Shown here: piece after piece, positions 2,829 to 45,149 of the stretch | Layout: each line of letters begins with the position of its first letter | Position numbering within the stretch: position 1 is the first letter of the stretch | Source of the DNA: Desulfobacca acetoxidans DSM 11109 | Lineage (GTDB): Bacteria; Desulfobacterota; Desulfobaccia; Desulfobaccales; Desulfobaccaceae | Assembly: GCF_000195295.1 (NCBI RefSeq) | Contig: NC_015388.1 | Span: forward strand, 1,736,001-1,800,000 | Length of the DNA stretch: 64,000 bases | Direction: 5' to 3' | Program-made: the position numbers and the translations under genes | The notes under the pieces: generated by a model | Told to the model about the DNA's origin: nothing | The model's database searches: none | Seen by the model: only the letters and a program-made list of their open reading frames with translations

Positions 2829-5800
2829 TCAGTGCGTCTCCGAAGGAGTTACTACCTTTGGATCGGGCTCTCCTGTTGGTGCGTGTGTCTTTTTTTTCCC
2901 GAACAGTTGCACTACCCCCACAAAAAAGAGGGGGATAAAGAAAATCGCCAGGAAGGTGGCAGTGATCATCCCGCCCAGGACGCCGGTGCCGATGGCCATT
3001 TGCGCCCCGGCGCCAGCCCCGGTGGCCAGGGCCAGGGGGAGGACGCCGAAGCCGAAGGCCAGAGAGGTCATGACGATCGGTCGCAGCCGCAGTTTGGAGC
3101 CCTCCAGAGTGGCTTCGACCAACCCCATACCTTCTTCTATTTTGGCCATGGCGAACTGCACGATTAAAATGGCGTTCTTGGTGGTAAGCCCCAAAACGGT
3201 GAGCAGCCCGATCTGAAAATAGACGTCATTGGGCAGTCCCCGCAGTGATGACGCCACCACGCCGCCGACAACTCCCAACGGCAAGGCTAGCAGGATAGTG
3301 ATGGGAATGGTCCAACTCTCATACAGGGCGGCCAGGCAGAGAAATATCACGATTATAGAGAAGGTGTAAAGCAGTCCGGTTTGGGCCTTGGCCATACGCT
3401 CCTGGTAGGAGATGCCGGTCCAGTCATAACCGACGCCCTTGGGCAGCTTAGCGACAATCTCTTCCATGGCCTGCATCGCCTCTCCGGAGCTTCTCCCCGG
3501 GGCCGGTTCACCCCAAATATTCAAGGATGGGAAGCTGTTGTAACGCTCCAAAAGCGGCGAGCCTTGGAACCAGTGGCCGGTGGCGAAGGAAGTAAAGGGT
3601 GTCATCGTGCCTGCGGCATTCCGGACATAGAGCCGCTCCAAGTCTTTGGGCAGCATCCGATAGGGCGAGTCGGCCTGGGCATAGACCCGCTTGACCCGTC
3701 CTCCCTGGATGAAGTCGTTCACATAAGCGCTGCCGAAGGCCGCCGAAATAGTGTGGTGGATAGCGCTGATGGGAACTCCCAGGGCTCCGGCTTTTTCCCA
3801 ATCCACATCGATGCGGTATTGGGTTACATCTTCCAGACCACTGGGGCGGACGCGGACCAACCTCGGATCCTGGGCAGCCATGCCGAGCATCTGATTGCGG
3901 GCCTTCATCAGGGCTTCATGGCCCAGTCCGCCTCGATCCTGTAATTGGAAGTCAAAGCCGCCCGCCCGCCCCAGTTCCAGGACGGCCGGCGGAGGGAAGG
4001 CAAACACCAAGGCATTGCGGAATTTGGAAAACTTGGCCATGGCGCGCTTTACCAAGGCATCCACCTTCAAATCCGCCCCGGGGCGCAGCTCCCAGTCCCT
4101 GAGCTTAACAAAAGCCAGCCCCGTGTTCTGGCCAGCTCCGGAAAAGCCCCGACCGGCCACCGTGAAAATGGAGGCCACGGCGTCCTTCTCATCCTCCAGA
4201 AAATGGGTGCGTACCTGATCTTGAATCTGCTGGGTTTGCTCCAGGGTCGAACCCGCCGGTAGCATCGTTTGAACAAACATGACGCCCTGATCCTCATTAG
4301 GGAGATAGGCAGTGGGCATGCGCTGGAACAGGAATCCCAGGGTTGCCACGATGAGCAGGTAAATAACCACGTAGCGGAGCTTCTTGCCGAGAATCTGCCC
4401 CACCATGGCTTGGTACCTATCCCTGGTCCACAGAAACGCCTGGTCAAACCAGCGGAAGAAAGGCCGAAAAAATCGAAAGCCGGTCTCCCCTCCCTGATGT
4501 CCTTTGGCAACCGGTTTGAGGAGGGAGGCGCACAGCACCGGGGTCAAGATCAGGGCCACCACCACTGACAACAGCATGGCGGCAATAACAGTGATAGAAA
4601 ACTGGCGGTAGATAACCCCGGTGGAGCCGCCAAAGAAGGCCATGGGGCCGAAGACCGCGGCGAGCACCAGCCCGATGCCGATCAAGGCGCTGGTGATTTC
4701 TCCCATGGATTTGCGGGTTGCTTCCTTGGGCGGGAGACCCTCTTCGCTCATGACCCGCTCCACGTTTTCGACCACCACAATGGCGTCGTCCACCAGCAGG
4801 CCAATGGCCAGCACCATGGCGAACATGGTCAGCATATTGATGGAAAACCCGAACAATCCCAAGATTGCGAAGGTTCCCAAGATGACTACCGGCACCGCCA
4901 GGGTGGGAATCAGCGTGGCCCGGAGGTTTCCCAGAAAAACATACATTACCAGAAATACCAAGAGGATTGCTTCGAAAAGGGTCCAGACCACCTCGTTGAT
5001 GGCCACCCGTACAAAGGGGGTGGTGTCATAGGGATACATAGCTTTCATGCCGGGGGGAAAGTATTTGGCCAGTTCTGCCATCTTCGCCTTGACGCCATCG
5101 GCGGTTTTCAAGGCGTTGGCCCCGGCGGCCTGCCGTATCGCCAAGGCGGCTCCTGGCTGGCCGTTGTACAACACCTTGCTGCCGTAGCGCTCGGTGCCCA
5201 GTTCGGTCCGCCCCACATCCCGCACCCGCACAATGGAGCCGTCCGGGTTGATGCGCAGGGGGATGGCGGCGAATTCCTCCGGCGTCTTGAGGAGATTCTG
5301 GACAATGATGGAAGCGTTCAACCGCTGGCCCTCCACCGCCGGAATCCCGCCGAACTGGCCGGCGGAAACTTCCACGTTATAGGCCTGGAGTCCTTTGATG
5401 ACATCTTCCATCGTTAACTGATAATCGTTCAATTTATCCGGATTGACCCAGACCCGCATGGCATACTGGGAAGTGAAGGTTTCCACTTCCCCCACCCCCG
5501 GCACCCGGGCCAGCACCTGTTCGATGTTGGCCTGAGCATAGTCGGCCAGGTCAAACTCGTCCATGCTGCCGTCTTCCGAGGTCAAACCGACAATGATAAG
5601 CCAGTTTTTGGTGGATTTACTTACTTTAACACCGCTGCGCTGCACCGTATCGGGCAGGCTGGCCATGGCGAGCTGGAGTTTATTCTGCACCATGGCCCAG
5701 GCCAGGTCCGGGTCAGCCCCCGGGGCAAAGGTCAGTTCGATTCTCCCGGCTCCGGAGGCATCGCTTGTGCCAGACATGTAGAGGAGCTTGTCAAAGCCGG

Positions 5801-43357: not shown

Positions 43358-44308
43358 ATGCGCTACTTGATTATGGGGGTCGGCGCCTTAGGGACGGTCT
43401 TCGGCGGGTTTCTCCGCCGGGCTGGCCACGCCGTTGATTTTATCGGTCGGGGAAGGCACTTTGAGGTCCTGTGTCGCCAGGGACTGGCCATTGACGGCAT
43501 CTGGGGAGAGCACCGGTGGGGGCCGATAGAAGGCATCCCGGTTGATCTCGCCAATATCCAACCCTATGATGTTATACTGCTCTGTGTCAAATCCTTCGAC
43601 ACCGAGGCGGCCTGTCAACGGGTACGCGATCTGTTGGTCCCGCGAGGGCTGATTATCTCCATCCAAAACGGCTTGGGTAATCTGGAGACCATTGCCCAGA
43701 TCTGCGGACCTAACGCTACTATCGGCGCCCGGGTGATATTTGGGGCTCAAATCCGCCAACCTGGCATTGCCACCGTAACTGTTTATGCCGATAAGGTCCT
43801 GTTGGGGGCGTTGCTTCCGGACAACAACCGCAACCGGCGGCTGCGCCAGGCTGTAGCTGACCTCAATAAGGCAGGCATCCCGACGCGCCTAGAAGATAAT
43901 ATTATAACCCCCATCTGGGAAAAAGTCCTGTATAATTGTGCCCTCAATCCCCTGGGGGCCATCCTCGGCGTGACGTACGGCGACCTGGCCGCCAGCTCCG
44001 ATACCCGGGGACTGATGTTCTCACTGATTGAAGAGATTTATCAGGTAGCCGCCGTCAAACAGATTCCCTTGAGCCATACCACGGCCCAGAGTTATTTTCA
44101 GCATTTTCTGGAGCGACTGGTGCCGCCCACCGCCGCGCATTATCCTTCCATGCTTCAGGATTTACAACAAGGGCGGCGGACCGAAATCGAGGCCCTCAAC
44201 GGCGCCATCTGCCGCTATGGCAAACAACACCGCATCAGAACCCCTTACAATGAAAGTATTACCCAACTCATCCGATTTCGCCAGACCTTGGCAGGGGTAT
44301 CCAAATAA
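43358..44308 (+). CDS. panE: 2-dehydropantoate 2-reductase
   Basis: NADPH-dependent reduction of ketopantoate to pantoate in pantothenate synthesis. The N-terminal Rossmann motif is IMGVGALGTVFGGFLRRAGH; the C-terminal helical domain has WEKVLYNCALNPLGAILG with the catalytic Lys, and later the family segment PSMLQDLQQGRRTEIEALNG. The length of 316 residues fits. It is transcribed away from the HTH/zinc gene. A sigma-54 promoter and small RNA follow downstream. Confidence 0.93.
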   Translation: MRYLIMGVGALGTVFGGFLRRAGHAVDFIGRGRHFEVLCRQGLAIDGIWGEHRWGPIEGIPVDLANIQPYDVILLCVKSFDTEAACQRVRDLLVPRGLIISIQNGLGNLETIAQICGPNATIGARVIFGAQIRQPGIATVTVYADKVLLGALLPDNNRNRRLRQAVADLNKAGIPTRLEDNIITPIWEKVLYNCALNPLGAILGVTYGDLAASSDTRGLMFSLIEEIYQVAAVKQIPLSHTTAQSYFQHFLERLVPPTAAHYPSMLQDLQQGRRTEIEALNGAICRYGKQHRIRTPYNESITQLIRFRQTLAGVSK

Positions 44309-44560
44309 TCGGTGACATAAAAGTTTATGTCTGGACTTTGAGCCTTCTTAGCCCGGCAGGAAAGTTTTTCACACTTTGCAGTAAAATTTCTTATACCAAT
44401 ATATAATCATAAATATAAATAAGATAGAGTTTTAAAGAATGAATTCAAGGGATAATGGTTCAATATTTTGGTTTATGGGCATTCCTGCAACCAATAGCCG
44501 CATGACTTATAACTATTTAATATTACAGTGGTAATAAATAATACCGACGACATTTAAATA

Positions 44561-44577
44561 TTGGCATGGACCCTGCA
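44561..44577 (+). promoter_or_regulatory. Sigma-54 promoter
   Basis: TTGGCATGGACCCTGCA: the -24 GG (44563-44564) and -12 GC (44575-44576) are spaced exactly as sigma-54 requires, and the flanking bases fit TTGGCAY-N5-YTGCW. Transcription would start near G44588. No protein gene lies behind it before the terminator at 44662-44698. Confidence 0.8.
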
Positions 44578-44587
44578 TATAATAAAA

Positions 44588-44698
44588 GGCAAATATGAAC
44601 AATTAAGGTCTCCAATTCCCCCCTTAATCAAAGTTCATATACCATTTTCTCCCCATACCCGCTGACCGGATGCCTCCCCCGTCCGGTCAGTTTTTTTT
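44588..44698 (+). ncRNA. Candidate sigma-54-dependent small RNA with C-rich loops
   Basis: From the predicted start at 44588 to the terminator end is 111 nt without a coding frame. Hairpin 1 pairs ATATGAAC (44593-44600) with GTTCATAT (44633-44640) and ATTAAGG (44602-44608) with CCTTAAT (44622-44628), exposing a loop with UCUCC and UUCCCC. The linker has UCUCCCC (44648-44654). Hairpin 2 is the terminator with CCUCCCCC in its loop. Such C-rich motifs often pair with Shine-Dalgarno sequences. Expression and targets are inference. Confidence 0.7.
44662..44698 (+). terminator. Rho-independent terminator of the small RNA
   Basis: Perfect nine-bp stem CTGACCGGA (44662-44670) with TCCGGTCAG (44682-44690), an 11-base loop and eight T. 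Confidence 0.92.
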
Positions 44699-44780: not shown

Positions 44781-45149
44781 TTACGGGTTAGTCCGATCAG
44801 CGGGTTTTTTCATTTCGGTCAAGCGGTCAAAGCAACCCTCGGCGTCTAGTTGATCCTCTAAAAATCTGGTAATTGTCACCAAGGCAGGGTGTTCTTTAAA
44901 GAGTCGCTGTAGTCCCACCCGATCTCCCCAATTTGGAAAAGGCACGTCAAGCTGAAACTCATCGATAATGACGTGATAGAGTTCGATCTGCTCCATTTCG
45001 GCCTGCCGCATCTGGCCCTCCACCTGGAATAAGAGTTTACGCAGTCGATTCAGGTAGAGTTCCCGTTCCTGAAACTCTCGCCGTTTGTGATCTAAAAGAT
45101 GCAATTTATGCTGGCGGCTCAGTTCACTAAAGGGAATAACGTTGCTCAT
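44781..45149 (-). CDS. Small coiled-coil protein of unknown function
   Basis: 122 residues, mainly charged helices with a probable coiled coil over residues 15-65 (KRREFQERELYLNRLRKLLF and onward), followed by a more structured part (FPNWGDRVGLQRLFKEHPAL). No signal peptide, no known domain. A GAGAGG site precedes the ATG. A questionable small frame lies directly upstream on the same strand. Confidence 0.6.
   Translation of the reverse strand: MSNVIPFSELSRQHKLHLLDHKRREFQERELYLNRLRKLLFQVEGQMRQAEMEQIELYHVIIDEFQLDVPFPNWGDRVGLQRLFKEHPALVTITRFLEDQLDAEGCFDRLTEMKKPADRTNP

Follow-up and report, generated by a model that had tools for sequence, protein, structure and literature searches.

A conserved family of C-rich small RNAs with sigma-54 promoters in Desulfobaccia, and a candidate response regulator

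The locus in Desulfobacca acetoxidans

The window, by which we mean the whole stretch of 64,000 nucleotides analysed here (G000:C1:1736001-1800000), belongs to the genome of Desulfobacca acetoxidans DSM 11109, a single contig of 3,282,536 bases. The organism belongs to the class Desulfobaccia, in the phylum Thermodesulfobacteriota. The gene upstream of the predicted RNA, panE/apbA, encodes 2-dehydropantoate 2-reductase at 43358..44308 on the plus strand (TIGR00745, 239 bits). The downstream gene, at 44781..45149 on the minus strand, encodes a hypothetical protein without a match in NCBIfam or Pfam; hisI lies beyond it, and the next open reading frame seems to be hisG, as inferred from its sequence alone. 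Homologs of the hypothetical protein adjoin RNAs of the type described here (type 1) in many genomes of the class. As an upstream neighbour, panE is found in part of the class only, and most relatives have a hydantoinase/oxoprolinase-like gene at this place.

A pattern search located a sigma-54 promoter of the -24/-12 kind, TTGGCATGGACCCTGCA, at 44561..44577 on the plus strand. The element has the correct GG-N10-GC spacing and is the sole exact match to TTGGCAYG-N5-TGCW within the 64 kb window; three matches appear when one mismatch is tolerated, against 1.06 expected. Counting 12 from C(-12) at 44576 places the predicted +1 at G44588. Among 44 aligned homologous copies, 43 keep TGGCAY-N6-TGCA, while the surrounding upstream DNA cannot be aligned. 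A conserved -24/-12 promoter directly 5' of the RNA is one criterion for a sigma-54-dependent small RNA, and sequence comparison shows that it is met, in the absence of transcript data.

From this predicted start, the type-1 RNA extends for 111 nt on the plus strand (44588..44698). Its folding energy is -32.7 kcal/mol, with z = -7.2 relative to 200 dinucleotide shuffles, and the fold consists of a first hairpin, an unpaired linker and a 12-bp terminator followed by U8. In the single-sequence fold, hairpin 1 (44588..44643) is built of an 8-bp outer helix (44593-44600/44633-44640) and a 7-bp inner helix (44602-44608/44622-44628), separated by a 1x4 internal loop and closed by a loop at 44609-44621. 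The two helices are paired in 89.6% and 93.4% of the cells of an alignment of 39 copies. When these copies are folded separately, hairpin 1 is present and its inner part is variable. The intrinsic terminator occupies 44661..44698; its hairpin (44661-44691, then T8) has the most stem pairs among 15 terminator-like sites surveyed between 40 and 50 kb, and compensatory changes support it.

Three C-rich motifs are exposed in this fold, all on the plus strand. The first, UCUCCAAUUCCCC (CCCACAUCCCCCC in most relatives), fills loop 1 at 44609..44621 and presents UCUCC unpaired; several of its Cs are invariant among the 39 copies. Motif 2, ACCAUUUUCUCCCC (ACCAUUUUCUCCUUUC in most relatives), lies around the single-stranded linker at 44641..44654. 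Here the window RNA exposes UUUUCUCCCC, the core UUUUCUCC is unpaired in single-sequence folds, and UUCUCC or UUUCUC occurs in 38 of the 39 copies. Motif 3 is the terminator loop, CCUCCCC. An unpaired C-rich motif complementary to the Shine-Dalgarno sequence is the criterion for an anti-Shine-Dalgarno small RNA, and the predicted folds together with the alignment show that it is fulfilled.

An earlier sequence-only reading had described a well-spaced -24/-12 element, two perfect hairpins of which the second is a strong terminator with eight T, three C-rich motifs exposed in the loops and linker, and no coding frame. These claims held with one exception: hairpin 1 is imperfect, owing to its internal loop. 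The longest complete open reading frame in any of the 39 homologous RNAs is 13 aa long, and often the longest is only 3-5 aa.

Conservation in the class and related RNAs

A DNA search found homologs of the RNA in almost every genome of the order, and many of these genomes have two tandem copies 300-500 nt apart. The covariance model of the 111-nt RNA (R2) matched in 29 of 29 class genomes, which rules out a chance occurrence. Type-1 matches score from about 1e-11 to 1e-24 and are present in every class genome except the incomplete assembly G028, where only the type-2 relative described below was matched. In the alignment of 39 RNAs, the loop, linker and terminator-loop segments are nearly invariant, and the stems are more variable. 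The proposed structure is paired in 94.4% of cells, and pairs changed on both sides number 11 against a shuffle mean of 4.8. The covariation score is 0.196, compared with 0.121 for shuffled and at most 0.062 for slid controls. Most of this signal comes from the terminator helix, with compensatory changes in 6 of 11 pairs, and covariation in stem 1 is weaker. Folded one by one, the copies share a common overall architecture.

The RNA family, its structure and its sigma-54 promoter are shown by sequence and comparative evidence. We consider it very likely that this is a genuine RNA gene family under sigma-54 control, although no transcript data are at hand. The earlier reading had named a lack of conservation of the promoter and stems in relatives as an outcome that would refute it. 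This test was passed class-wide by the promoter, both hairpins and the C-rich motifs; the accompanying suggestion that the RNA sits at panE 3' ends fails as a general rule, given the different upstream gene in most relatives. An Rfam scan of the window RNA at the gathering threshold matched no family, and relaxed thresholds gave sub-threshold matches only, such as LhrC at 22 bits.

Model R2 also matched a second, shorter sigma-54 RNA (type 2) in most class genomes, which shares the UUCUCCUUU core with type 1. In the window's genome it lies on the minus strand at G000:C1:340703-340811 (about 4003-4112 of locus L136). A separate -24/-12 promoter precedes the type-2 RNA. Most copies show GGUUACCCCC close to the 5' end; the linker contains UUCUCCUUUCUCC, and the terminator loop reads CCCCCUCC. 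In most genomes it is found between nagZ and a GT9-like glycosyltransferase gene, the latter identified by inspection. In many class genomes (L137, L142, L146, L150, L151, L156, L157 and others), the neighbourhood of the type-2 RNA and nagZ also includes another NtrC-type response regulator gene, whose product is 67% identical to L306 of the window's genome. This regulator (cluster c6) was rejected as the activator, since its similarity to L306, a bEBP of the own genome, exceeds its similarity to the regulators linked with small RNAs. Separately, one genus has a third RNA with CCCCCCC and a CUCCCCC terminator loop (L158, L159, L160; G009, G013, G008), which is preceded by a sigma-70-like promoter (TTGACA ... 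TATAAT) without a -24/-12 element.

Elsewhere in the phylum, several weak model matches combine a sigma-54 promoter, the anti-Shine-Dalgarno core and a terminator; others lack these and are regarded as noise. The promoter joined to the pattern TTYCTCCTT occurs in 19 of 297 phylum genomes, five of them in the class, whereas the reversed control pattern occurs in two genomes. A similar control with the wrong sigma-54 spacing (N5 instead of N6) had no match in the 297 genomes. A named scan of 84,980 species found the palindrome described below together with a terminator in class members, in Desulfarculus/Desulfocarbo-type bacteria and in a few unnamed bins; a Desulfobulbaceae bin and a Desulfobacterales bin have the terminator and a weaker palindrome score. 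AT-rich matches in Clostridia and Bacteroidetes were treated as chance, for they have no palindrome and, save one weak exception (L259), no terminator.

The RNAs examined have in common a CUCC-type segment exposed just 5' of the terminator, with flanks and stems that vary from family to family. The linker segment of L128/L168 reads as the reverse complement of AAAGGAGGAAAAAGATG, which comprises an entire ribosome-binding site together with a start codon. We observe the same relation to a complete ribosome-binding site with start codon in the linkers of L127/L167, L187 and L189. An extended stretch common to the f90 and f51 RNAs is antisense to approximately ATGAARAAATTATYAGG; a pattern search for an extended mRNA target of the f51 RNA matched only the RNA locus itself.

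The upstream palindrome and a candidate regulator

A palindrome with the consensus CGGTAcAAAaatTTGAACCG lies upstream of both type-1 and type-2 RNAs. Its correlation with its own reverse complement is 0.90, and it scores above the 99th percentile of shuffles in 67 of the 72 upstream regions from which the matrix was learned. Most centres fall near -97, -107, -119 or -131, roughly one helical turn apart; given the relatedness of the copies, this phasing is no more than suggestive. The strict pattern GGTWCAA-N4-TTGWACC proved too strict, covering 12 of 29 genomes. Among all loci fetched up to that point, strong palindrome matches without a nearby sigma-54 promoter numbered only two.

The window contains two putative upstream activator sites on the plus strand. 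The distal site, CAGTAAAATTTCTTATACCA, is centred about -199 (44379..44398) and scores 17.9 bits, above the 99.9% level of shuffles. The proximal site, TGGTTCAATATTTTGGTTTA, is centred about -122 (44456..44475), is half degenerate and, at 7.9 bits, weak alone. They are 77 bp apart, and the paired sites in relatives linked to a response regulator are 76-79 bp apart. Such a shared palindrome is the signature expected of an NtrC-type activator, an inference from sequence for which binding data are lacking. A conserved upstream activator site is a further criterion for a sigma-54-dependent small RNA; we regard it as met, with the reservations that the proximal site of the window is degenerate and that binding has not been demonstrated.

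In several genomes outside the class, an NtrC-family response-regulator gene is located directly upstream of the RNA. The promoters of such linked RNAs carry the palindrome above the 99.9% null in 20 of 23 scored cases, often as two sites at about -130 and -208. Nearly all training sequences of the matrix came from the class, which makes this result a largely independent check. Reading the sequences of 59 non-class relatives of the regulator, we counted 24 that are followed about 120-300 nt downstream by a sigma-54 promoter and by an RNA with CUCC and a terminator. Because some of the 59 are more distant paralogs, true orthologs are linked in a higher proportion. Another four cases came to light from the RNA side, so that the linkage of regulator and small RNA extends to 28 genomes in 12 families. 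The shared palindrome and this linkage of one orthologous group of response regulators across the phylum are shown by sequence and comparison. One non-class locus (L340) has two tandem small-RNA units, at +200 and +652 after the regulator stop.

The best own-genome match to the linked regulators, at 55-59% identity, is encoded at G000:C1:404157-405524, and a histidine kinase gene precedes it. We therefore name this AtoC/ZraR-like response regulator, with its AtoS/ZraS-like kinase, as the best candidate for the activator; its signal is unknown. The gene lies at 404 kb and the RNA at 1.78 Mb. The arrangement seen for Pxr and in D. vulgaris, with the RNA directly downstream of an NtrC-type regulator gene, is not met in this genome, and none of the 15 bEBP genes parsed from it has an adjacent small-RNA unit according to a uniform detector, which missed a minority of the cases on which it was run. 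Action in trans is inferred because regulator and RNA are unlinked in the class. That the named regulator activates the RNA in trans is likely in our judgement, but it rests on the shared palindrome and not on binding data. When an autoregulated activator was sought by applying the palindrome matrix to the bEBP loci of the own genome, nothing strong was found.

On the other hand, the sigma-54 contact loop of the candidate raises an objection. All 10 class regulators examined (L319-L328) read GAFTHA in this loop, and the non-class orthologs read GAFTGA or GSFTGA. The class change is unexplained and counts against the named regulator as the activator. A GAFTHA activator, DVU2894, is listed with targets in D. 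vulgaris (PMC4641369).

Proposed mechanism, alternatives and known systems

We propose that the kinase would phosphorylate the NtrC-family response regulator. Once bound to the palindrome pair, centred about -122 and -199, the regulator would activate RNA polymerase carrying sigma-54 at the -24/-12 promoter. In the predicted fold of the transcript, which is about 111 nt long, a single-stranded linker joins the 5' hairpin to the terminator hairpin. The three C-rich single-stranded segments of the RNA may pair with Shine-Dalgarno sequences in several mRNAs and so prevent translation from being initiated, with no need for Hfq. A search for PF17209 gave no match in the own genome and detected Hfq in the E. 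coli and B. subtilis controls. Since the exposed CUCC segment is conserved and Hfq is absent, direct Shine-Dalgarno pairing is the simplest reading. Anti-Shine-Dalgarno action in trans is likely, an inference without target or pairing data. The whole explanation, a regulator-driven, sigma-54-dependent and Hfq-independent RNA that represses translation in trans by Shine-Dalgarno pairing, also appears probable, with expression, targets and signal untested. Its inferred parts are activation by the regulator in trans, the pairing, and which targets and which signal are involved.

Three further claims of the sequence-only reading bear on this proposal. Sigma-54 control is reinforced by the shared upstream palindrome. 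A nitrogen or envelope signal finds no support, the candidate being an AtoC/ZraR-like regulator of unknown signal. Pairing of the C-rich motifs with Shine-Dalgarno sequences remains an inference; the anti-Shine-Dalgarno core is common to related RNAs in 12 further families.

A bolder reading, which is slightly less likely than not, is a module spread through the phylum Desulfobacterota/Thermodesulfobacteriota, in which one orthologous kinase-regulator pair, sigma-54 and a fixed palindrome would drive fast-evolving RNAs that share only the exposed anti-Shine-Dalgarno segment. If true, the module turns a two-component signal directly into repression of many mRNAs with strong Shine-Dalgarno sequences, without Hfq.

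We considered four alternatives. First, a genuine sigma-54 transcript might bind a protein instead of mRNA, acting as a CsrA sponge or with a C-rich-binding chaperone. A sequence similar to a CsrA site, ACCGGAUG, is present in the window terminator stem, and multiple repeated single-stranded motifs are typical of sponges, as discussed for LhrC. However, just 12 of the 39 homologs have GGA in the terminator region and just 21 have it at any position, it is paired within the window terminator, the conserved part is the CUCC core and not GGA, and Hfq is absent by the Pfam search. We consider this reading unlikely.

Second, the RNA might be a broad decoy that imitates the 3' tail of 16S rRNA and lowers the translation of strong Shine-Dalgarno mRNAs in bulk. 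In most relatives, the core UUCUCCUUUC is similar to the textbook 16S tail CCUCCUUUCU, and the anti-Shine-Dalgarno core alone is common across families, with variable flanks. Within the class, however, the flanks are strongly conserved (AUACCAUUUUCUCCUUUCACC), which suggests defined targets. We consider a decoy unlikely. A search for the 16S tail pattern in the own genome had no match, perhaps because of masking.

Third, a cis element of a neighbouring gene (terminator, leader or attenuator) would fit an intergenic position downstream of panE with a terminator at the end. The RNA is not a leader of the hypothetical protein gene, because that gene is on the opposite strand; since panE, on the RNA's own strand, lies upstream, the RNA is unlikely to be a cis leader. 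The RNA also has its own conserved -24/-12 promoter, its copies are tandemly duplicated and its upstream neighbours differ, so we hold a cis element to be very unlikely. Last, a short leader peptide or small protein gene, to which an AUG near the 5' end of most copies might point, is all but excluded by the short reading frames noted above, a frame that is not kept and the loss of the AUG in some copies.

The preferred reading, a trans-acting anti-Shine-Dalgarno RNA, has its closest functional parallel in LhrC1-5 of Listeria monocytogenes (RF00616). LhrC is also about 110 nt, with two hairpins and a single-stranded linker. In both RNAs a CU-rich motif occurs redundantly three times, once each in loop A, in the linker and in the terminator loop; both have several sibling copies and two-component control, the last inferred for the window RNA. 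LhrC acts on lapB without Hfq, and each of its three motifs was shown to bind target mRNA (PMC4132741). It is the best plus-strand Rfam alignment by bit score, at 22 bits and E = 0.72 against a gathering score of 110. In contrast to the RNA here, LhrC belongs to an unrelated phylum and is activated by LisR, not by a sigma-54 activator, and the stems show no similarity beyond the motifs. By analogy, the window RNA may work like LhrC without being a member of that family.

The Qrr RNAs of Vibrio are sigma-54-dependent, are controlled by an NtrC-type activator (LuxO) and have several sibling copies of about 110 nt, features that resemble those found or inferred here. Unlike the window RNA, whose genome lacks Hfq, they depend on Hfq, and they are not known to carry the C-rich triple motif; Rfam scans gave no Qrr match to the window RNA. 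The design proposed here joins two others, known separately, in a genome without Hfq, namely Qrr-like sigma-54/NtrC control with siblings and LhrC-like triple C-rich anti-Shine-Dalgarno motifs. Pxr of Myxococcus xanthus is a small RNA with a predicted sigma-54 promoter and an upstream enhancer region, directly downstream of pxrR (nla19), in an organism with no hfq (PMC5684412). The pxrR gene is NtrC-like. Pxr differs in having three stem-loops, no described C-rich anti-Shine-Dalgarno motif (PMC5684412) and a host in a different phylum.

Neither Rfam nor the open-access literature that we searched contained the RNA family, the anti-Shine-Dalgarno design, the palindrome or the phylum-wide linkage, though an earlier report may have been missed. 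The earlier reading knew of no such RNA for the group. Sigma-54 ncRNAs are known in D. vulgaris, and a sigma-54-dependent RNA beside an NtrC-type regulator is of a kind already known. Little is known of control by small RNAs in sulfate reducers and their relatives, and mechanistic studies mostly presuppose Hfq. What is gained is an RNA family supported by covariation, with a promoter, a putative activator site and a named candidate regulator.

A system from the same phylum is the sigma-54 regulome of D. vulgaris, which includes four ncRNAs of unknown function (PMC4641369, PMC3333781). Two are directly downstream of the response regulators DVU0653 and DVU0679, and the others are upstream of DVU3282 and DVU2357 (PMC3333781, PMC4641369). 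There, response regulators or other EBPs target ncRNAs, as we propose here. Orthologs of DVU0653 and DVU0679 are described as limited to few species, unlike the regulator group in this study. The family reported here offers a lead on these sigma-54-dependent ncRNAs mapped in Desulfovibrio vulgaris.
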